The position numbers and the translations under genes were made by a program. This document shows, piece by piece, positions 14,013 through 60,516 of a stretch of DNA of 64,000 bases. The first letter of the stretch is position 1; each line of letters begins with the position of its first letter. The notes under the pieces were generated by a model. The model saw only the letters and a program-made list of their open reading frames with translations. It searched no databases and had not been told where the DNA came from. This DNA comes from Comamonas testosteroni (GTDB lineage: Bacteria; Pseudomonadota; Gammaproteobacteria; Burkholderiales; Burkholderiaceae_C): contig NZ_CP043568.1 of assembly GCF_014076415.1 (NCBI RefSeq), positions 3,410,001 to 3,474,000 on the forward strand, written 5' to 3'.

Positions 14013-15452
14013 TCAACCCTGCTGTGTGGCCTCTTCTCCACCCAGAGCCTTCCACAAGGTCACGCGGTTGAGCTGCTCAGACAGGCGCAGGGCTATCAGG
14101 GTCTGCTGTGCGCTATAGAGGCTGCGCTGCGCATCCAGTACCGTCAGATAGTTGTCCACGCCGGCCTTGAAGCGAGCATTCGACAAGTCGAAGGCTTTCT
14201 GGGTATTGGCCACCATGCTGATCTGTGCGGCCAGCCGCTCATCCCACTGGGCGCGGTCAGCCAGAACATCCGCCACCTCCTTGAAAGCCGTCTGCACGGA
14301 CTTCTCGTACTGACTCAGCGCAATGCGCTGATTGCTTTCGGCCACCTGTACATTGGCGCGGTTGCGGCCGCCATCAAAAATCGGCAGCTTGACCAGAGGG
14401 ATGAAACTCCAGGTGCTGTTGTTGTTGCCGAACAGACGGTCCAGCTCGTTGCTGCCGGTGCCGACACTGCCGGTGAGCGTGATGCTGGGAAACAGCGCCG
14501 CTCTGGCTGCACCGATATTGGCATTCATGGCCTGCAGATTGCGCTCCGCAGCCTGCACATCCGGACGCTTGAGCAGTACCGACGAGGGCAGAGGTACGGG
14601 CACGACCTTGAGAGCCGCCGTGTCTGCCGCACCCGCCAGGGTCTGGGCGTTGGGCAGCAGCTGTGCAGGCACCGGACCACCTGCCAGCAGTTGCAGGGCA
14701 TTGCGATCCCTGTCGACCTGGGAGGTGTAGCTGGCCACATCACCGCGTGCCGTATCGACCGTGGTCTGGTTCTGGGCCAGCACCAAACCGGAGGTCGAGC
14801 CCAGCTCATGCATGCGCCGTGTCAGCTCAAAAGCCTTGATACGGCTGTCCAGCGTGTCCCTGGCCAGTTGCAGGCGCGCCTGGTCGGCCGCCAGCGTCAG
14901 CCAGGCATTGGCAACATCGGCCACCAGACCGATCTGCACATTGCGCCGGTTGTCCTGGCTTTGCAGAAACTGCTGCAGCGAGGCTTCGCTCAGATTGCGG
15001 ATGCGTCCCCACAGATCCAGCTCGTAGCTGGCGAAACCCAGCTGGGCCGTGTATTGCTCGGTGACGCTGGAGCGCCCTGCCGTCGTCAGATCCCCTGCGG
15101 TGCGCGTGCGATTGCTCTGCGCCTGGGCCGTGATGCCCGGCAGCAGATCGGCTCTTGTGATGCCGTACTGGGCCCGGGCCTTCTCGATGTTCTCCAGCGC
15201 GACGCGCAGATCGCGATTGTTGCTCAGTGCCAGCGCCACCACCTCGCGCAGCTGCGGCGACTGCAACCATTGCAGCGCCTGGGCCTGTTGCAGCGCAGCC
15301 TCGCTGGCCTGGGCCGGCACGGCGTTGCCGGACACGGTCTCGGGTACGGGCAGATCAGGCGCTTTATAGGCCGGAGCCAGGTTGCAGCCTGCCAGCAAGG
15401 CCGTCACTGCGGCTGCGGCCAAGGTCGAAAGTTTCATGCTCGGGCGCCTCAT
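14013..15452 (-). CDS. RND efflux outer membrane lipoprotein (OprM/NodT family)
   Basis: This 479-residue outer membrane channel is the exit duct of the tripartite pump. The signal peptide ends in a lipobox LLAGC (Cys23 from this start), so it is lipid anchored. Two repeated outer-membrane-efflux domains follow, rich in long helices (for example LRVALENIEKARAQYG and LAQNQTTVDTARGDVASY). The start at 15452 overlaps the pump gene stop by 4 bp (ATGA), which indicates translational coupling; an internal ATG at 15437 is the alternative. It is the last gene of the operon and is followed by an intrinsic terminator. The closest named relatives by layout are OprM, TtgC and OprB-type channels. Confidence 0.95.
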   Translation of the reverse strand: MRRPSMKLSTLAAAAVTALLAGCNLAPAYKAPDLPVPETVSGNAVPAQASEAALQQAQALQWLQSPQLREVVALALSNNRDLRVALENIEKARAQYGITRADLLPGITAQAQSNRTRTAGDLTTAGRSSVTEQYTAQLGFASYELDLWGRIRNLSEASLQQFLQSQDNRRNVQIGLVADVANAWLTLAADQARLQLARDTLDSRIKAFELTRRMHELGSTSGLVLAQNQTTVDTARGDVASYTSQVDRDRNALQLLAGGPVPAQLLPNAQTLAGAADTAALKVVPVPLPSSVLLKRPDVQAAERNLQAMNANIGAARAALFPSITLTGSVGTGSNELDRLFGNNNSTWSFIPLVKLPIFDGGRNRANVQVAESNQRIALSQYEKSVQTAFKEVADVLADRAQWDERLAAQISMVANTQKAFDLSNARFKAGVDNYLTVLDAQRSLYSAQQTLIALRLSEQLNRVTLWKALGGEEATQQG

Positions 15453-18400
15453 GCTGCGCTCTCCTTGTTGACGTCAGCCGTCTCATCGCTGCGCGAGCGG
15501 CTCTTGAACCAGCTGCGCACCAGCAGGAAGAACACCGGCACGAGGAAGATACCCAGTACCGTCGATGCCACCATGCCGCCCAATACGGCCGTGCCGATGG
15601 CATTGCGACCACCAGCGCCAGCGCCGGTGCCGATGGCCAGCGGAATCACGCCGAAACCGAAGGCCAGAGAAGTCATCAGGATGGGACGCAGACGCAGACG
15701 CACGGCTTCCACCGTCGCGTCGAACAGCTTCTTGCCCTGCTCCTGCAGCTGCACCGCAAACTCCACGATCAGGATCGCGTTCTTTGCCGCGAGACCCACG
15801 GTGGTGAGCAGGCCGACCTGGAAATACACGTCGTTGGTCAAGCCACGGGTATAGGTCGCCAGCAGCGCCCCCACCACGCCCAGCGGCACGGCCAGCATCA
15901 CCGACAGCGGCACCGTCCAGCTTTCATACAGCGCAGCCAGGCACAGGAAGACGAACAGAATCGAGATGGCATACAGCATGGGCGCCTGCGCACCGGACTG
16001 GCGCTCCTGCAGCGAAGCTCCCGTCCATTCGTAGGCAATGCCGTTGGGCAGCTTCTTCAAGATGTCTTCCACCGTCTCCATGGCCGTACCCGAGCTGATG
16101 CCCGCTGCGGCACGGCCTTCAAACTCATAGGCCGGACTGCCGTTATAGCGCAGCAGCTGGGGAGAACCATAGGCCCAGTAGGTTTTGGAGAACGAACCAA
16201 ACGGCACCATCTCGCCCTTGTTGTTGCGTACCGTCCATTTGGCGATATCGCCAGGCAGCATGCGGTACTGGGCATCGCCCATGATGTAGACACGCTTGAC
16301 GCGACCGTTGTTCAAGAAGTCGTTCACATAGGTGCCGCCCATGGCGCTGGAGAGCACGCTGTTGATGTCGCTATACGCCAGCCCCAGAGCAGCAGCCTTG
16401 CGGTCATCCACATCCACGCGCAGCTCGCTGGCGTCTTCCAGATTGGTCGTGCGCACGGCCGTCAGCAGATTGTTGGCGCGCATTTCGCTCAGAACCTGAT
16501 CACGCGCGGCGAGCAGTGCTTCATGGCCCGCACCATTGATGTCCTTGATCATGAAGTTGTAGCCGGAACTCGAACCCAGGCCGCGCACCGCCGGTGGCAA
16601 CACCACTTGCACGCGCGCATCGCGGATGCTGGCCAGATCCTTGGTCGCCTTGTTCGCAATGGCCGCAGCCGATTGCGAAGGCAGCGGACGCATGCTCCAG
16701 GGTTTCAGACGGATAAAGCCGCGCGCCGAACTCTGGTCGCCGTTGAGGCCCGAAACCTGGTTGAAGCTGATCACATCCGGCTGCTTGGCCAGATACTCGC
16801 GCACCTGGTCCAGGACCTCCTGCAGACGGGCGTCAGAAGCGCCAGACGGCAGATTGACGTTGACATAGACAAAGCCCTGGTCCTCATCGGGCAGAAAGGA
16901 GGTGGGCAGCTTGGCCATCAGCAACCAGACTGCGGCCAGAACCGCCAGGAAGATCAGCATCATGCGCTTGGCCCGGCCCAGGCTGAAAGCCACTGTGCTC
17001 TGGTAACGATTGGCCGAAGCATCGAAATTGCGGTTGAACCAGCGAAAGAATCGGTCGTTGATGCCCAGCACCCCGGAGCGTATGGGGCGCTCATGGCCGT
17101 CGCCATGGCTGCGATCCGGAGCCTTGAGAAGCGTTGCGCACAGCGCCGGTGTCAGCGTCAGGGCCACGAACACGGACAGCGCCATGGCCGCCACAATGGT
17201 GATGGAGAACTGGCGGTAGATCACACCGGTCGAGCCGCCGAAGAAAGCCATGGGCACGAACACCGCCGACAGCGTGACCCCGATGCCGACCAGCGCGGGC
17301 GTGATTTCCTTCATGGACTGGCGCGTCGCCTCCTTGGGAGACTTGCCCGTCTCGTGCATCACCCGCTCCACGTTCTCGACCACCACGATGGCATCGTCCA
17401 CCAGCAGGCCGATGGCCAGCACCATGGCGAACATCGTCAGGGTGTTGATGGAGAAGCCCGCGACGGACAGCACGCCGAAGGTGCCCAGCAGCACCACCGG
17501 CACGGCAATGGCGGGGATCAGCGTGGCACGGAAGTTCTGCAGGAACACGAACATCACGATCACCACCAGCACCATGGCCTCGCCCAGCGCATGCACCACC
17601 TCGCTGATTGATGCCCGTACAAAGGGCGTGGAGTCCGAGCTCACGAAGTAGTCGATCTGGTTGGGAAAGAAGGGCTTGAGCTCGGCCAGCTTGGCGGCCA
17701 CTGCATCCGACACCGCCATGGCGTTGGCACCATCGGCCAGGATGATGCCCATGCCCGCACCTGGCATGCCGTTGAGCTTGGCCTGAATGGAAAGATTGTC
17801 GGCCCCCAGTTCCACCCGAGCCACGTCCTTGATGGTGACGACAGAGCCGTCATTCGAAGACTTGAGCACGATGCTCTCGAACTGCTCCACCGTCTTGAGC
17901 TTGGTACGCGCCGTAATGGTTGCGTTCAGCTGCTGGTTCTGCACCGCCGGCAGAGCTCCCAGCTGGCCTGCAGAGACCTGGGCATTCTGCGCGTTGAGCG
18001 CGCTGCTCAGATCGGAGGGAATCAGCCCGTATTTCTCCATCTTGGCCGGGTCCATCCAGATGCGCATCGCATAGGGCGTACCGAAGACGTTGATGTCACC
18101 GACACCCTCGATACGCCCGATGATGTCCACCAGATTGCTGTTGATGTAATCGCCGATGTCCACGGCGGTCACGTCCTCATCGGGCGAATAGAAGCTGTAG
18201 GTAACCAGAAAGTCCTGGCCTCCCTTGTTGATGAAGACACCACGCGTCTTCACAGCGTCCGGCAGGCGGTTGACCGCGCCCTGAATCTTGTTTTGCACCT
18301 GCACCTGCGCCACGTCGACATTGGTTCCCGGGGCAAATGTCAGCGTGATACGCGCCTGACCCGACGCATTGCTGGTCGAGCTCATATAGAGCATGTTGTC

Positions 18401-31468: not shown

Positions 31469-32701
31469 ATGACATCGACATCCTCCCGAACACACCGCGT
31501 GCCGCCATTGCTGTGGCTGGCCGTGGTGATACTCGTCACCATCAATCTGCGCCCCTTTCTGACGGCTCCGGGTCCCTTGGCACCGACCATACAGCAGGCC
31601 ACGGGCATGGATTTGCGCAGCTTTTCCTGGCTCACGCTGCTGCCCATGGCGCTGATGGGCATTGGTGGCTGGCTCGCTCCCACGGCATTGCGACGCTGGG
31701 GGGCGCGCGCCGCCATCTGCACCTCGCTGCTGCTGATCGCGCTGGGCTGCGCCCTGCGCCTGACGCCTGCAGGAGCTGCGACCGGTAGTCTTCTGATCGT
31801 CACGGCCGGCCTCTGCGGCACGGGCGTGGCGCTGGCACAAAGCATTCTGCCGGGGCTGATCAAGCGCCAGTCTCCCCACAACGTGGCGCCCATGATGGGT
31901 CTGTATTCGGCGGCGCTCATGGGCGGCGGTGCCCTCAGCGCCCAGCTCTCGCCAGTGGCCATGCAGCTGGGTCTGAGCTGGCAGGCTTCGCTGGCCATCT
32001 GGACCATTCCGGTGCTGCTGGCATTGCCGCTGGCCTGGCATGCGCTGACCCTGATGCGCGAGCCCGTTGCCCCTGCACCCTCCGCGCCCCCGATACAAGC
32101 CGACAGCGACACTGGCTGGCTGCTGCACCGCGGCCGCGCCTGGCTGCTGCTGATCAGTTTTGGCCTGATGAACGGCGGCTATGGCTCCACCGTCGCCTGG
32201 CTTGCTCCGTTCTATCAAACCCATGGCTGGACGGCCACGCAAAGCGGCTCGCTGCTGGCCATTCTGTCGATTGCACAGGCCGCATCGGCGCTGGCCATGC
32301 CCGCCCTGGCGCGCAGCAGTCTGGACCGTCGCTCCTGGGTTGTGCTGGCCTTGCTGCTGCAGATCATCGGCTTTGCCGGCCTCGGACTCTGGCCCGATGC
32401 CATTCCCACGCTCAATGCCATCGTGCTGGGGCTGGGTCTTGGCGGTTGTTTTTCGCTCTTCATGCTGGTGGCGCTGGATCATCTTCCCTCGCCCACGCAG
32501 GCCGGCGCCCTGAACTCGCTGATGCAGGGAGGCGGCTTCATCCTCGCCGCACTGGCCCCTCTGGTCATGGCGCAATTGCACCAGATCAGCGGTAGCTGGA
32601 CGGCCGGCTGGCTCTATCAGGCCGGTGTGGCGGCGCTGGTCTGCCTGCTGGTGACACGCTTCAATCCCAAGGGCTACCCACAAGCCATGCAGCGGCCTTG
32701 A
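31469..32701 (+). CDS. MFS transporter, CynX/NimT family
   Basis: This is a 410-residue, 12-helix transporter. The N-terminal VVILVTINLRPFLTAPGPLAPTIQQATG and the middle GTGVALAQSILPGLIKRQSPHNVAPMMGLYSAALMGGGALSAQLS are typical of CynX (cyanate) and NimT/YeaN (2-nitroimidazole) transporters. No cyanase or other cyn gene is nearby, so the substrate stays open. The transporter lies 96 bp after the deaminase gene, so co-transcription is possible. A strong terminator follows. Confidence 0.9.
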   Translation: MTSTSSRTHRVPPLLWLAVVILVTINLRPFLTAPGPLAPTIQQATGMDLRSFSWLTLLPMALMGIGGWLAPTALRRWGARAAICTSLLLIALGCALRLTPAGAATGSLLIVTAGLCGTGVALAQSILPGLIKRQSPHNVAPMMGLYSAALMGGGALSAQLSPVAMQLGLSWQASLAIWTIPVLLALPLAWHALTLMREPVAPAPSAPPIQADSDTGWLLHRGRAWLLLISFGLMNGGYGSTVAWLAPFYQTHGWTATQSGSLLAILSIAQAASALAMPALARSSLDRRSWVVLALLLQIIGFAGLGLWPDAIPTLNAIVLGLGLGGCFSLFMLVALDHLPSPTQAGALNSLMQGGGFILAALAPLVMAQLHQISGSWTAGWLYQAGVAALVCLLVTRFNPKGYPQAMQRP

Positions 32702-32720
32702 ACGCGCCATCTCACCCCTC

Positions 32721-32752
32721 AAAAAAGGCCTGGAAATATCCAGGCCTTTTTT
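32721..32752. terminator. bidirectional intrinsic terminator
   Basis: The 13-bp stem AAAAAAGGCCTGG / CCAGGCCTTTTTT has a 6-nt loop. It lies between the convergent CynX-like gene and the HD-Pnk gene and has A and T tracts serving both strands. Confidence 0.93.
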
Positions 32753-32765
32753 GTTTTGGCTTGAA

Positions 32766-33911
32766 CTACTCGTTGGCCAGCAGTTGCAGCCCATGCGCTT
32801 CGGTCGGCAATGGCACCTCCCATCTGTGCAACATGCCCAGCAATGCGGCATTACCGAGTGTGGTGTCGCGCTTGCTGTTGCGCGCCAGCAAGGTGGACCG
32901 GGTGGCCTCCAGATGCACCAGCTCCACCTGTGCACCATAGGCCAGGCACAGGTCCAGCGTCTTGCCGCGCATCTGCCTGGACAGATGCGTGGCGTTCCAG
33001 ACAAAGGCAGCCTTGGCGCGCAGCAGGCTCTTGGCCTTGTCCACGGCTCGGTGGGCAGCAGCGCCCTCGTTCTCGCCATGGCGCAGGCCCAGCTCGGCGC
33101 GCGCATCGTCGAACGACACCACAGGCAAGCCCGGATGATGCTGGGCAACCCAGTGGTTCTTGCCTGATGCAGGCAGACCGCACATGACGATGACGCGCGA
33201 GCCCGGCTCTTCATGCAAGGCGTAGTCCGGGTGCAGCTCGGCACCGCGGAAATAGCGTACTGCCGTCTCGGCCGAAGCAAAGCTGCGCGGCTTGCGCAAA
33301 CAGCCCTCTTCCAGCGCCAGCTCCCTGAACAGCTCGATATTCACCAGCACATTGCCCACATCGGGGCAGATGCGGCCACGAATATCGGCCCGGGCCAGCA
33401 GCACCAGCAAATGCAGATCGACCTGCCAGGACAGCTCACGAACCACGAACTCGGGCGAGACGCCTCGGCGCGAATTGGCAAAGGCGAAGAAAGGCACCTG
33501 ATGCACCGCAATCAGGCGGCAGACCGCCTCCCGCCAAGCCACAGGCGCGCCCGCCTCCCAGAGCATGAGCCGCACATCCAGCGCGCCCCTGCGTGAATGG
33601 CCGGGCTGCGAGATGCGGCCGTCGTCGGCTATCTGCGTGGTCGAGCACTTGGCCACATCGTGCAGCAGCGCAGCCAGAAAGACGGTCTCGCGCTCCTCGT
33701 TGGTGAGCCGTGCATAGTCGCTGTCCTGCAGCAACTCGGTCACCACCATCTGCGTATGCGTCCAGACATCGCCTTCGGCATGGTAGTGCGGGTCCTGCGG
33801 CGTGGTCTTGGCAAGCTCCAGTTGCGGGAAGGCGTCCAGGCAGGCCGCCCAGTCCACCGAGTCGTGAGCGGAATGCGGCACCAGGGCCGCAATCTGTTTC
33901 CAGCTCCACAT
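32766..33911 (-). CDS. HD-Pnk type bifunctional nucleic acid end-healing enzyme
   Basis: This 381-residue protein is a fusion of two domains. Residues about 35-200 form an HD phosphohydrolase domain with H44, H52, the H84-D85 pair and D176 (LLARADIRGR). Residues about 238-381 form a P-loop kinase of the T4-Pnk/AAA_33 type. It has MCGLPASGKN (245-252), SFDDAR (acidic pair 268-269), WNATHLSRQMRGK and lid arginines. This matches the Runella HD-Pnk architecture, whose HD part removes 2-prime,3-prime-cyclic or 3-prime phosphates and whose kinase phosphorylates 5-prime-OH ends. The P-loop ends in GKN instead of GKS/T. The ATG at 33911 has AGGAG 5 nt upstream. It follows an ATP-dependent RNA ligase gene 72 bp upstream, as reported for other HD-Pnk genes. 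Activity is inferred. Confidence 0.88.
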   Translation of the reverse strand: MWSWKQIAALVPHSAHDSVDWAACLDAFPQLELAKTTPQDPHYHAEGDVWTHTQMVVTELLQDSDYARLTNEERETVFLAALLHDVAKCSTTQIADDGRISQPGHSRRGALDVRLMLWEAGAPVAWREAVCRLIAVHQVPFFAFANSRRGVSPEFVVRELSWQVDLHLLVLLARADIRGRICPDVGNVLVNIELFRELALEEGCLRKPRSFASAETAVRYFRGAELHPDYALHEEPGSRVIVMCGLPASGKNHWVAQHHPGLPVVSFDDARAELGLRHGENEGAAAHRAVDKAKSLLRAKAAFVWNATHLSRQMRGKTLDLCLAYGAQVELVHLEATRSTLLARNSKRDTTLGNAALLGMLHRWEVPLPTEAHGLQLLANE

Positions 33912-33950
33912 AAGTTCTCCTTTCACCGTAGCTTCATCACGCAACTACGG

Positions 33951-33994
33951 TTTTGATAGCTATCAATGCTTTCTGGTAAAGCCCTACCAGCTTT
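33951..33994. repeat. dispersed GATAGCTA hairpin element
   Basis: TTTTGATAGCTATCAA is followed by a small hairpin (CTGGTA / TACCAG at 33973-33978 and 33985-33990) that overlaps the last codons and stop of the RNA ligase gene. The same building blocks occur near 13933-13963 in the other orientation, and a partial copy lies near 25869. It resembles small dispersed repeats of Comamonadaceae intergenic regions. Confidence 0.5.
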
Positions 33995-34820
33995 TGGGGA
34001 TCACATTGGCAAAGATATCGACGCCTGCACGCAGACCGTTGGCGACGATGGGCCGCTCGCTGTGGTGCGAGCCCGACTCCAGGATCACCTGCACGAAGTC
34101 GGAGCGCACGAACTTGTAGCGCTCCACGGTCTGGCCGTTCTCCTCGACCTTGATATACAGACCTTCGGCAAGTTCGGATCTGTCGGTCTGGCGCCAGGCC
34201 AACGGCAAATCCAGCTTCTGCCTTTGCACCTGATCCTCGAACACCGCCTTCCAGCGCGCACTGCGCCCCAGGGACGGTGTCAGCAATGCCAGCAAATCCT
34301 GCAAGCGCCTCGGTGCGATACCGGCGTAGAGCACGGGCACGGACACCACAGGCACACCGGCCAGCAGCGCATGGCGCTGCGGCGTATCCAGAAACTGCTG
34401 CGCCACGCGGTCCCAGACGTCGAACTCGCAAAACCAGTGCGGCAACGCGTCGTAGTACAGAGAATGCTTGGCATACAGCCATTCGCCATACATCACATAG
34501 CGTTCGTCCAGCAAGGCCATCAGTGCCCCTTCATGGGCTCTGGCCCATTGCTTGTAGGCATTGAACTGACGCTCGCGCCCGCCCATCTGATCGGCTTGCA
34601 GATAGTGGCCGCGCGACTGCAGCAGCAAGCTGCCGTCGGCGCCAAAGCTCAGCGCCGCATTGGCGCCATCCAGCTTTTCCTCGACCACGATATGGCGGCC
34701 GGCCAGGGCTTCATAGGACACGGCGTCGGCCTGATCACCGACCTGCAGTCGCGAGCCACGCAGATGCGGCGTGCGAGGATATTTGAGAATCTCCAGATTG
34801 AATAAATGGGAAGTAGTCAT
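33984..34820 (-). CDS. ATP-dependent RNA ligase family protein
   Basis: This 278-residue member of the covalent nucleotidyltransferase superfamily is of RNA-ligase type. The motif I lysine lies in EEKLDG (Lys49). Motif III is MYGEWL (110-115), IIIa is CEFDVWDR, IV is EGLYIKVE, and V is YKFVRSDF. All five motifs are in the right order, so it should form a lysyl-AMP and seal 3-prime-OH/5-prime-phosphate ends. There is no extra C-terminal specificity domain beyond about 40 residues. The frame extends 41 codons upstream, but the ATG at 34820 with a GGAAA site gives a compact N-terminus. It precedes HD-Pnk in the same orientation, forming a healing-and-sealing pair. Confidence 0.88.
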   Translation of the reverse strand: MTTSHLFNLEILKYPRTPHLRGSRLQVGDQADAVSYEALAGRHIVVEEKLDGANAALSFGADGSLLLQSRGHYLQADQMGGRERQFNAYKQWARAHEGALMALLDERYVMYGEWLYAKHSLYYDALPHWFCEFDVWDRVAQQFLDTPQRHALLAGVPVVSVPVLYAGIAPRRLQDLLALLTPSLGRSARWKAVFEDQVQRQKLDLPLAWRQTDRSELAEGLYIKVEENGQTVERYKFVRSDFVQVILESGSHHSERPIVANGLRAGVDIFANVIPKSW

Positions 34821-35372
34821 GTTGTGCTTTCCAAAAAGGGAATAAGCCACGCACCAAAAGGCATGGCAGACAAACCAAGGACAACGAAAGCGGCACTCGC
34901 CGCCACCATCGGGCGAAGACAAAGACACCTGGCCGCCATGCAAAGAACAGGCCGGGATTCAGGGAGTGGAAGAGCGCAGGACCAAGGCGTGAGCCAGGTC
35001 AGAAACGCCAGGCAAGGGCTTGCTCACCGCGAAGGCGCAAGTGCCCCCTCAGGGCGACATGCAACGGGAAAGTAGGAGGCAGCCCGAGTCAGGCACCTCC
35101 GGGGGTTATATATCCACACCGCAGCGCACACGTGAGAGATCAGCGTGTGACGAAGTCGTTTAGCGCAAACGAATGCGGCAGGACATGGTGCACCTCGAAA
35201 ATGAGAGCGAATAACGCAAGTGGGGTATGGCTGGCGAGTGTATTGGCTTGTGACAGCAGCTGCCAAGCGATTTGCAGTCTCTGTGGTGCAAAGACCACGA
35301 ATCTGTTTCACAGGGATGAAACAGAGGCTGGTTACAAATCGTAGTTTTCTTCCTGCACCTGCCAAACTCTCA
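34821..35372. other. 550-bp divergent non-coding region
   Basis: No credible gene is present between the RNA ligase and the lipoprotein gene. Part of a GC-rich dispersed repeat lies at about 35034-35060. Two small hairpins follow, CACACG/CGTGTG (35127-35149) and TCGTTT/AAACGA (35156-35172), and then a 24-bp palindrome at 35302. I looked for a sigma-54 promoter (the RtcR type used by other RNA-repair operons) before the ligase and did not find one. Confidence 0.5.
35302..35325. promoter_or_regulatory. 24-bp palindrome upstream of lipoprotein gene
   Basis: TCTGTTTCA and TGAAACAGA are perfect 9-bp arms around a 6-nt spacer, ending 47 bp before the start codon. The size and position suit a dimeric repressor site, or a leader hairpin if transcribed. 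The regulator is unknown. It does not match a PHO box. Confidence 0.5.
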
Positions 35373-37349
35373 ATGACATCTGCACAGACCTTGCGCCAAC
35401 ATCTTCTGATTTCCCTGATTGCAGCCGCTGCCCTAACCGCCTGCGGTGGTGACGACAACAACACGAACAGCACCACCCCAACACCTGCTCCGGTTCCTGA
35501 AGGCCCGGCACCGGCTCCCGAGCCCGAGAAGACGCCTGTCTCGCTCCTGCTCGAAAAAATCGGCAGCTATCAGTCGGGCATTTTTTTGCAGAGCGCCGCC
35601 GAAATTACGGCTTTCGATCCCGTCACCAAGCGCGGCTTTGTGGTCAACGCCCAGAAAGGTGCGCTGGATGTGCTGGACATGAGCAACCCCGCCGCACCGC
35701 GCATGCTCGCCAGTCTGGATGCCACCAAGCTCTCGCTGGGTGCAGGGGCCTCCATCAACAGCGTGGCCGTGCATGGCGGCCTGGTGGCCGCAGCCGTGCA
35801 GGCATCGGTCAAGACGGACAAGGGCATGGTTGTCATCTATGACGCCGACAAGCTCGGCGTGATCGCAGAAGTGCCCGTGGGCGCCCTGCCCGATATGTTG
35901 ACCTTCACCCCCGACGGCAAGACCATTCTGGTCGCCAACGAGGGCGAGCCCAGCGATGACTACCAGATCGACCCCGAAGGCTCGATCAGCGTGATCGACG
36001 TGAGCACGCCCGCCAAGCCTGTGGCTCGCACTGCCGACTTCAAGGCCTTCAACAGCCAGAAGGCCCAGTTGCTGGCCAAGGGCGTGCGCATCTTCGGCCC
36101 GACCGCAGACGGCCAGGGAACGGCCGCCGTGGCCAACGACCTGGAGCCCGAATACATCGCCGTGGCCCCCGATGGCAAGACGGCCTGGGTGACACTGCAG
36201 GAAAACAATGCGCTGGCCATCGTGGACATTGCCAGCGCCACCGTGAACGAGGTGGTGGCTCTGGGCTACAAGGATCATGGCGCTGTTGGCAACGAGCTGG
36301 ACTTCGCCGACAGTGACGGCAAGAGCCCGGTCATCGACATCACCCGGGCCCCCAACGTCTACGGCATGTTCCAGCCGGACTCCATCGCCGCCTACAAGGC
36401 CGCAGACGGTGCAACCTATCTGGTCACGGCCAACGAAGGCGATGCACGTGCCTGGGGTGAAGGCAACAAAAGCTATTTCGGCACCGCCGCCGACAAAACA
36501 AGCGGCACCCCGGCTGCGGCAGGCGATGTGACCAAGGGCTTTGTGGAAGAGTGGCGCATCAAGCATCTGGTGCACAAGGACGGCTTTCTGCGCCGTGCGG
36601 GCGACGACCTGCCCGCTCATCTGGCCAGGCTGGCCAGCGGCGCCTATCTGAGTGGCGCCAACTTTGCCTGGTGCGGCGCAGTCGGCACAGACCCCAAGAC
36701 CTGCCGCGACGACGACAAACTGGGCCGCCTCAAGGTCACCTGGACCATGGGCTACCAGACCGACAGCAGCGGCAACCCCGTCAAGGATGGCAAGGGATAT
36801 CTGACCTATGACAGGCTATACGCCTATGGAGGTCGCTCCATCTCCATCTGGGATGCCAAGGGCAAGCAGGTCTGGGACTCTGGCGCTGCCATCGAAAAAT
36901 TCATCGCCAGCCCCGAATGCAAGCTGGGCGCCAAACGTGACATTGCCTGCGCCGCCTACTTCAACACCGGTCATGACGAAACGGCCAGGCTCGATGCGCG
37001 CAGCAGCGCCAAGGGTCCCGAGCCCGAAGGCCTGACCGTGGGCCAGATCGGCACCAAGACCTTTGTCTTTGTGGGCCTGGAACGCATGGGCGGCATTCTG
37101 GTGTTCGACATCACCGACCCCAAGGCACCCAAGCAGATCGACTATCTGAACACTCGCGAGAACTGGAGCGCCGGCTTTGACAGCAAGTCCGCGCTGGCAG
37201 GCACCGCACTCAGCGATGTGGGCGATCTGGGCCCCGAAGGCCTGCACTTCATTTCCGCGGCCAAGTCACCCAACGGCAAGCCCCTGCTGATGGTGGGCAA
37301 CGAGGTCAGCGGAACCACAGCCATCTACCAGCTCAATCTGCAGTATTGA
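35373..37349 (+). CDS. choice-of-anchor-I-like beta-propeller lipoprotein
   Basis: This 658-residue exported lipoprotein has a signal peptide ending in AALTACGGDD (lipobox cysteine near residue 24) and a Pro/Glu-rich linker. It continues as a long beta-propeller-like chain with repeated blade motifs (for example FTPDGKTILVANEGEPSDDY, EYIAVAPDGKTAWVTLQENNALAIVDI, FVFVGLERMGGILVFDI). This pattern is typical of the choice-of-anchor I family, related to alkaline-phosphatase-associated and mesenchyme-specific glycoprotein propellers. The enzymatic role is unclear. The first residues fit the ATG at 35373, and the 51 extra upstream codons are not needed. It ends at a clear terminator before the ABC importer leader. 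Confidence 0.85.
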   Translation: MTSAQTLRQHLLISLIAAAALTACGGDDNNTNSTTPTPAPVPEGPAPAPEPEKTPVSLLLEKIGSYQSGIFLQSAAEITAFDPVTKRGFVVNAQKGALDVLDMSNPAAPRMLASLDATKLSLGAGASINSVAVHGGLVAAAVQASVKTDKGMVVIYDADKLGVIAEVPVGALPDMLTFTPDGKTILVANEGEPSDDYQIDPEGSISVIDVSTPAKPVARTADFKAFNSQKAQLLAKGVRIFGPTADGQGTAAVANDLEPEYIAVAPDGKTAWVTLQENNALAIVDIASATVNEVVALGYKDHGAVGNELDFADSDGKSPVIDITRAPNVYGMFQPDSIAAYKAADGATYLVTANEGDARAWGEGNKSYFGTAADKTSGTPAAAGDVTKGFVEEWRIKHLVHKDGFLRRAGDDLPAHLARLASGAYLSGANFAWCGAVGTDPKTCRDDDKLGRLKVTWTMGYQTDSSGNPVKDGKGYLTYDRLYAYGGRSISIWDAKGKQVWDSGAAIEKFIASPECKLGAKRDIACAAYFNTGHDETARLDARSSAKGPEPEGLTVGQIGTKTFVFVGLERMGGILVFDITDPKAPKQIDYLNTRENWSAGFDSKSALAGTALSDVGDLGPEGLHFISAAKSPNGKPLLMVGNEVSGTTAIYQLNLQY

Positions 37350-60441: not shown

Positions 60442-60516
60442 TGGTGGGTGATACATGGATCGAACATGTGACCCCTGCCGTGTGAAGGCAGTGCTCTACC
60501 GCTGAGCTAATCACCC
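60442..60516 (-). tRNA. tRNA-Val (anticodon CAC)
   Basis: A 75-nt cloverleaf with CCA encoded. Acceptor arms are GGGTGAT and ATCACCC with discriminator A. The D arm is AGCTCAGCGGTAGAGC, the anticodon stem CTGCC/GGCAG with loop TTCACAC (anticodon CAC at 60482-60484), and the T arm holds GTTCGATCC. CAC reads GTG valine codons. It lies between dnaQ and the lipid operon. No integrase or att repeat was found next to it. Confidence 0.95.

Follow-up and report, generated by a model that had tools for sequence, protein, structure and literature searches.

A putative leader RNA with a short upstream reading frame ahead of the RNA ligase/HD-Pnk operon of Comamonas testosteroni and related bacteria

The stretch of Comamonas testosteroni DNA analysed here (contig NZ_CP043568.1, positions 3,410,001 to 3,474,000; 64,000 nucleotides, hereafter the window) contains a two-gene operon encoding an ATP-dependent RNA ligase and HD-Pnk, a protein in which an HD domain is fused to a polynucleotide kinase. 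Ahead of the ligase gene lies a conserved leader with a very short upstream open reading frame (uORF). Comparison of this leader across genera leads us to favour, with some reserve, an RNA-repair operon whose leader RNA would be gated by translation of the uORF, completion of the frame resulting in low expression and failure to complete it allowing the ligase to be translated. The operon comprises the following features.

33984..34820, minus strand: ATP-dependent RNA ligase, 278 amino acids, ATG at 34820, Rnl2-like nucleotidyltransferase domain
32766..33911, minus strand: HD-Pnk, 381 amino acids, ATG at 33911, N-terminal HD phosphoesterase-type domain, C-terminal P-loop polynucleotide kinase-type domain
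32720..32753, no strand assigned: terminator-like palindromic hairpin of 15 pairs with a T-run, between the convergent HD-Pnk and MFS genes

The ligase gene comes first and the HD-Pnk gene second, with a spacing of 72 nucleotides. Pfam assigned the ligase to RNA_ligase (PF09414, E-value 3.8e-36, residues 43-237) and HD-Pnk to HD at its N-terminus (PF01966, above the cut-off, E-value 1.3e-5, residues 66-141) and AAA_33 at its C-terminus (PF13671, E-value 5.9e-19, residues 240-362); it found neither T4_Rnl2_C, the C-terminal domain of Rnl2, in the ligase nor an RtcB domain in either protein. A 43-sequence alignment showed no variation at ligase residues K49, D51, R70, E113, E132, D134, E219, G220, Y222, K224 and K236, which we take to be those of nucleotidyltransferase motifs I, Ia, III, IIIa, IV and V. 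Across 43 HD-Pnk sequences, the metal-ligand residues of the HD domain (H52, H84, D85, H105, D176) and the kinase residues G250, K251, D268, R271, R315 and R348 were likewise without variation. The predicted structure of the ligase (mean predicted local distance difference test score, pLDDT, 91.6) had T4 Rnl2 as its best Foldseek match (E-value 4.3e-8) and was also near Naegleria gruberi Rnl and the trypanosome editing ligase REL1, so that joining of RNA rather than DNA is the function to which the model leans. In the HD-Pnk model (pLDDT 95.7) the kinase was near mammalian PNKP, the PFKFB kinases and the Clostridium Pnkp kinase by Foldseek, and a profile search matched T4 Pnk and Pnkp kinase entries; PFKFB and seryl-tRNA(Sec) kinase match this part equally well or better than the Pnk-type entries. 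The HD part resembles the HD domain of CCA-adding-type enzymes. Assignment to a defence family was rejected, as PADLOC yielded nothing beyond weak Cas3-HD matches to the HD domain. Judging from their families, HD-Pnk would clean 2',3'-cyclic or 3'-phosphate ends and phosphorylate 5'-OH ends, and the Rnl2-like ligase would seal the ends so prepared.

A first-pass annotation of the window had described an RNA ligase with nucleotidyltransferase motifs including Lys49, followed by an HD domain fused to a P-loop kinase, and both descriptions are borne out by the Pfam matches and the invariant residues. Its reading of the two proteins as an end-healing-and-sealing pair agrees with the domain architecture, the conserved residues, the predicted folds and the adjacency of the genes in many phyla described below, and the strong terminator that it placed at the end of the operon corresponds to the terminator-like hairpin with T-run listed above. 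Its view of a self-contained operon with a non-coding flank holds in part: the upstream gap (34821-35372) does span 552 bp, provided that ATG 35373 is the start of the divergent gene, a start shared by the relative of that gene in genome G002, but the gap cannot be called simply non-coding, since it holds a conserved leader that travels with the operon.

An upstream alignment of 14 Comamonas loci revealed this leader as a conserved block ahead of the ligase, separated from it by variable DNA. Its features in the window are listed from the promoter towards the ligase.

35237..35266, minus strand: predicted sigma-70-type promoter-like site, TTGGCA-18-TACACT, upstream of the leader
35191..35196, minus strand: Shine-Dalgarno sequence of the uORF, GAGGTG, with GAGG kept in all 26 leaders of alignment A9
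35160..35186, minus strand: putative uORF of 8 codons, MSCRIRLR, stop TAA, conserved in close relatives
35155..35160, minus strand: strand A, AACGAC, overlapping the uORF stop by one base, at the position of GCCGACGAC in other genera
35127..35149, minus strand: leader hairpin CACACG...CGTGTG with conserved arms
35117..35126, minus strand: conserved element CGCTGCGGTG, with uORF codons 3-5 or a downstream strand as alternative partners
34890..34895, minus strand: TGCCGC, a possible but weak partner of GCGGTG (6 pairs in the window, 2 of them G-U)
34875..34886, minus strand: strand B region, CGTTGTCCTTGG, at the position of GTCGTCGG in other genera according to alignment A12
34827..34832, minus strand: Shine-Dalgarno sequence of the ligase, GGAAAG, with GAAAG invariant in A12

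Scanning positions 32600-35500 with the promoter consensus returned 2 sites, compared with 0.5 in shuffled sequences, and the second hexamer of the promoter-like site reads TACACT, TAAACT or TAGACT in relatives. The 64 loci whose ligase is at least 70% identical to that of the window represent 27 distinct upstream regions, and the uORF was found in 26 of them, with 8 codons in 25 and 9 codons in one. The 25 eight-codon frames comprise 15 distinct sequences that keep the ATG start and end in TAA or TGA, and the sole change of length among close relatives is a difference of +3 nucleotides that keeps the frame. The exception is G002, in which the uORF is 24 kb away while the ligase retains the part of the leader 3' of the uORF. 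A transposase-like gene, named by eye, stands just after the relocated uORF (L148, 6201-7205) and may have caused the separation of leader and operon.

Among the 26 leaders of A9, the strand A core CGAC is invariant and the leader hairpin folds in every one, with 7-nucleotide arms and an insert of 9 to 39 nucleotides; its arms are nearly invariant and therefore provide little covariation evidence for it. RNAalifold applied to the longer Comamonadaceae alignment A12 paired CGCTGCGGTG with uORF codons 3-5. The possible downstream partner of CGCTGCGGTG is CATTGCGGCGC or a variant in most relatives and TGCCGC in the clade of the window, where the partner strands of CGCTGCGGTG and of the A:B helix are partly degraded and the uORF and hairpin are retained. 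When helices linked to the uORF were ranked, another frame came first in most Comamonadaceae loci.

The same layout was found upstream of ligases 54-68% identical to that of the window in Achromobacter, Bordetella, Burkholderia, Janthinobacterium, Undibacterium, Variovorax, Pectobacterium, Pseudomonas and others. In this layout a frame of 8-9 codons, frequently opened by GTG, ends in a stop codon, and GCCGACGAC or a variant of it stands no more than a few bases away; strand B, GTCGTCGGC, which is the reverse complement of GCCGACGAC, follows shortly ahead of the ligase start. We gathered 51 loci because they show this layout (26 of Comamonadaceae type and 25 others). Their uORFs encode 34 distinct peptides, with 8 codons in 41 loci and 9 in 10, and a Shine-Dalgarno-like motif precedes the frame in 50 of the 51.

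Twenty of the 25 loci not of Comamonadaceae type were aligned by sequence only, four near copies being omitted together with L165, whose uORF is followed by ACGAC without the longer strand A motif. Strands A and B are among the best conserved columns of this alignment, and the sole consensus helix returned by RNAalifold is A:B, with 8 pairs, 3 of which have changed on both sides with pairing kept. Examples are GCTGACGA:TCGTCAGC in Janthinobacterium and GCCGACAAC:GTTGTCGGT in Variovorax. Counted as 9 pairs, A:B is formed in 93.9% of cells, against 5-67% in slid versions, and its covariation score was reached by 1 of 500 shuffles, a count that is not a probability because the sequences are related. 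At the level of single loci, in 19 of the 51 the A:B helix was equalled by no more than 5 of 100 shuffled versions of strand A. In several lineages strand B, alone or with the pyrimidine tract that follows it, can also pair with the Shine-Dalgarno/start region of the ligase (C), as in GTTCGTTG:CAACGAAC (L053), GTCGGCTCCG:CGGAGACGAT (L034) and GGTTTTTCC:GGAGAAACC (L073). Between 0 and 4 of 100 shuffles equalled this B:C pairing in L034, L035, L068, L073, L053, L155 and L059. Only a single helix is common to all genera.

How specific the layout is to this operon was assessed in several scans. A control rule (7-10 codons, strand A motif, strand B), fixed after the initial loci, was applied to 39 further rows, of which L056, whose ligase is truncated by the start of its contig, was discarded; it matched 9 of the 38 valid rows, each of them matched by at most 4 of 200 shuffles. 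Most of these matches duplicate, exactly or nearly, loci that had been used before (L033, L069, L051, L050, L058 and L063, the last resembling L171); among upstream sequences that had no part in making the rule, L074 (previously glimpsed), L174 and L175 match it. The rule fails in L164, L127 (copy L170), L071 (copy L169) and L079; by eye, a frame stands at the place of the uORF in L164 (8 codons), L071 and L169 (7 codons) and L079 (14 codons). A strict scan of both strands of all fetched loci (3.58 Mb) gave 19 matches at about 17 distinct places, some of the loci overlapping, and all 19 lie directly ahead of a ligase of the kind found in the window, a second kind of partner ligase being described below. 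A motif search in 200 genomes of the family returned 3 copies, namely the split leader of G002 and two located about 300 nucleotides before the ligase in another genus, and the pattern of uORF plus strand A, sought in 45 genomes (15 with a full-length ligase of the window kind), gave 4 matches, all ahead of the ligase. With the leader block as blastn query, 14 of 61 genomes gave one match each, and all 14 bear the pair. A helix search without the uORF rule returned mostly unrelated helices. None of the 4227 Rfam models matched the leader in the window, where one non-significant U4 match (E-value 1.3) was obtained, nor in ten related loci, a set outside which the Achromobacter, Pseudomonas and Janthinobacterium leaders fall. 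The sole Rfam match at gathering score in the window is a tRNA gene at 60445-60516 on the minus strand. At the level of sequence, the comparisons establish a conserved leader whose short frame keeps its place, and one covarying helix, restricted to this operon in the DNA scanned.

These features suggest a mechanism. The uORF ends in a stop codon that touches strand A, and strand A can pair with strand B just before the ribosome-binding site of the ligase. A ribosome at the uORF stop would cover strand A, leaving strand B to close the ligase start, and expression would be low. If the uORF were not completed, due to a broken or scarce tRNA or to damaged ribosomes, A would pair with B and the ligase would be translated. 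Since A:B and B:C are mutually exclusive and strand A would lie under a ribosome at the stop codon, completion of the uORF should close the ligase and failure should open it; the direction of switching is a deduction from this geometry, and we infer both that the leader is a switch and what its signal is. In Comamonadaceae the same logic may use CGCTGCGGTG, through pairing with either the uORF codons or the downstream strand.

Several observations weigh against this proposal. In the window itself, strand B is degenerate and pairs with AACGAC at 5 of 6 positions, and the leader (34818-35163) folds only slightly better than its shuffles (z-score -1.45, with 7 of 100 as good). The RNAalifold run on the shorter alignment A9 did not return the pairing of CGCTGCGGTG with the uORF, and outer pairings differ between the overlapping alignments. 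Taken singly, A:B is unremarkable in 24 of 26 Comamonadaceae leaders (the exceptions are L158 and L159), and B:C stands out in 7 of the 51 loci and not in most. In the 20-locus alignment, 45 of 500 shuffles have at least as many doubly changed pairs, again a count over related sequences and not a probability. The blastn search missed the block in 3 of 17 pair-bearing genomes (G007, G014, G031), in which the leader has diverged. Finally, the layout is absent by the control rule in 23 loci that are from other phyla or unassigned, and by the strict rule in 18 loci with the second kind of ligase and in 5 HD-Pnk loci without a ligase (for L085 and L091 the stretch preceding HD-Pnk was used); the pair can therefore exist without the leader.

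The conservation could instead be that of an ordinary repair operon with a translation-enhancing or mRNA-stabilising 5' untranslated region, the tiny frame being a by-product of conservation at the RNA level. The nearly invariant hairpin arms fit this explanation, as does the high nucleotide conservation of the leader core, which makes conservation of the frame within Comamonadaceae weak proof. Yet the collected loci keep the start, the Shine-Dalgarno motif, the 8-9 codons and the stop while their 34 peptides differ, both TAA and TGA serve as stops, and the one 3-nucleotide change preserves the frame; we regard an untranslated region of this type as unlikely. It is very unlikely, in our view, that the leader is a separate small RNA or part of the divergent gene at 35373 and stands near the ligase incidentally. 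Such an origin would account for the variable DNA between leader and ligase and for G002, where the leader stays beside the divergent gene after the rearrangement, but the leader still precedes the ligase where the divergent gene is missing from the retrieved stretch, as in five loci (L150, L152, L153, L154, L156), and in other genera, and every match of the strict scan precedes a ligase of the window kind.

Two further alternatives retain a switch and differ in its sign or its signal. In a transcription attenuator, A:B would be an unusually long-looped terminator stem with a U-rich stretch after it; a ribosome standing at the stop of the uORF would prevent termination, so that translation of the uORF would turn the operon on. 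A T-rich run does follow strand B in several loci (e.g. L064, L068, L070, L073 and L080) but is missing in others (e.g. L034, L062, L112 and L172), the span from A to B, roughly 45 to 270 nucleotides, is long for an intrinsic terminator, and the pairing of the pyrimidine-rich tract with the Shine-Dalgarno region of the ligase in several lineages also argues against attenuation, which we hold to be improbable. We are equally doubtful of an attenuator that senses arginine tRNA, in which the CGC and CGT codons of the uORF would be the signal and damage to the tRNA reading them would switch repair on. In the 36 distinct uORF sequences, 62 of the 261 internal codons specify arginine, always as CGC or CGT, and 32 of the 36 have at least one, a share that suggests a role for one arginine tRNA; these counts are not independent because the uORF sequences are related, base pairing of the RNA may be what fixes the codons, and 4 of the 36 have none (e.g. 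MPYASQHA and MPCINLYI). A macrolide-arrest motif (R-x-R) in the uORF peptide was dropped as a general explanation because many peptides of other genera lack it. Having weighed these alternatives, we retain gating of the ligase by completion of the uORF as our preferred reading. Its extension to a class of ribosome-sensing RNA switches, spread over Burkholderiales and some Gammaproteobacteria and inducing ligase and HD-Pnk upon translation failure (broken tRNA, damaged ribosomes) with no regulatory protein, is put forward more tentatively.

The first-pass annotation had proposed a search for the gene pair across Burkholderiales, and this search recovered it. Among 100 genomes, including that of the window, the ligase was matched in 28 (2 partially) and HD-Pnk in 27 (2 weakly, in the HD domain only), and all 25 full-length HD-Pnk genes have a ligase match within about 150 nucleotides. 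The partial ligase matches (G023, G049) and the weak HD-only matches (G070, G093) were excluded from membership; in G046 the ligase lies at a contig end, without HD-Pnk. In 250 genomes of the order, a close full-length ligase occurs in 6 and HD-Pnk in 7, the seventh (G289) having a different ligase directly upstream. A class-wide search gave no full-length ligase beyond those already known. From a wider scan of named genomes, the best 80 of 103 loci were analysed, of which 78 count as HD-Pnk (L133 being doubtful) and L131 and L132 fail the HD-Pnk cut. Ligases of one of two kinds accompany HD-Pnk in 69 of these 78 loci: 52 have the window kind and 17 a second kind of about 210-270 amino acids, also PF09414, with the motif IV sequence EGxVxR. 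The 9 loci without a ligase include L099 and L123, which begin at a contig edge, and the doubtful L133. The ligase is upstream of HD-Pnk in 67 of the 69, and in two Acidobacteria (L085, L091) a ligase of the second kind lies downstream. As these best 80 of 103 loci include HD-Pnk/ligase pairs from Pseudomonadota, Myxococcota, Acidobacteriota, Cyanobacteria, Bacteroidota, Bacillota and others, the annotation was also right that HD-Pnk neighbours ligases in several phyla.

Within the genus Comamonas the presence of the pair is patchy; it has the same neighbours in close genomes and a different location in others. A mobile element was considered as an explanation and set aside. Of the 24 Comamonas genomes that bear the pair, 21 also have RtcB, against 7 of the 22 that lack it (46 of 53 genus genomes were counted, the 7 omitted being all under 90% complete), and the window organism has an RtcB gene elsewhere in its genome, outside the pair operon. 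This co-occurrence rules out the pair as a substitute for RtcB.

Several arrangements around related genes were observed in passing. In G023, a Comamonas without the pair, genes for an AAA_15-type ATPase with DUF3696 and for a PIN-like protein precede that of a distant PF09414 ligase (L048, 5044-7608), apparently as a three-gene operon, and the ligase match of G049 is similar to that of G023. A NADAR-Macro fusion protein is encoded directly upstream of ligase and HD-Pnk in L103 (6173-7156), which hints at a connection to ADP-ribosylation reversal. Two ligase genes precede HD-Pnk in Pseudobacteroides (L108, 6079-9116), the first of the window kind and the second with T4_Rnl2_C, and in Burkholderia aenigmatica (L068) another HD-Pnk-like gene (15134-16168) lies some 6 kb away from the first. 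In L056, L064, L076 and L115 the pair is adjoined by mutually related proteins that carry Cys/His pairs and look HNH-like, and in L056 and L064 these sit between ligase and HD-Pnk; those of L064 and L076 have no Pfam match. A conserved class I methyltransferase gene lies immediately upstream of the ligase in L084, L089, L117, L118 and L119 and, by eye, in L082; these ligase-adjacent methyltransferases occur in Myxococcales, an Actinomycetota bin and Oscillospiraceae. Their identification as Hen1 was rejected, given that generic class I methyltransferases match first and that 3jwi and 3jwg (entry name Methyltransferase type 12), which we take to be bacterial Hen1, come no higher than ranks 16 and 18. 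The two-gene operon of the window contains no Hen1 methyltransferase.

The pair itself is not new. Munir and Shuman (2018, J Bacteriol) reportedly described HD-Pnk of Runella slithyformis, with ligase-linked homologues in many phyla in an operon with a putative ATP-dependent ligase. Like the window protein, Runella HD-Pnk is an HD phosphoesterase fused to a P-loop polynucleotide kinase with an ATP-dependent ligase partner; we saw no essential difference between the proteins, the partners in the loci examined here being PF09414 ligases of two kinds. What is plausibly new is the uORF-gated leader upstream of the RNA-repair operon. We know of no description of a leader or uORF for an HD-Pnk/ligase operon, and no report of one was found in the open full-text literature, most subscription journals being outside that search. 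Nor, to our knowledge, has a trigger or repaired target been described for such pairs. The heal-and-seal logic is that of T4 Pnkp with RNA ligases 1 and 2 and of bacterial Pnkp/Hen1, and the window ligase has a predicted fold nearest to T4 Rnl2 and a partner kinase near the Pnkp kinases; in contrast to those systems, an HD domain takes the place of the phosphatase and no Rnl2 C-terminal domain was found in the ligase.

Stress genes controlled through leader peptides include mexXY, via the PA5471 leader, and the erm and tna genes. The leader described here would share with them a very short frame, competing RNA helices and a link to the state of translation, all predicted in our case; it differs in that the peptide varies widely, strand A abuts the uORF stop and the downstream genes repair RNA. 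If the proposal is correct, the leader would suggest what switches RNA repair on, since gating by a uORF would indicate that what is sensed is the translation machinery, and it would provide a simple reporter handle for finding the inducer. A known parallel in control is the RtcBA RNA-repair operon under RtcR, a CARF-domain activator that binds tRNA fragments (Hughes et al. 2020, PMC7790460). Both are bacterial RNA-repair operons, and Rtc control is linked to damaged tRNA; RtcB is a different ligase, and Rtc relies on its CARF-domain activator, whereas the window operon would rely on a uORF leader. The operon would then sense the lesion that it mends, and would represent a second, independent and protein-free solution beside the Rtc protein sensor of tRNA fragments.

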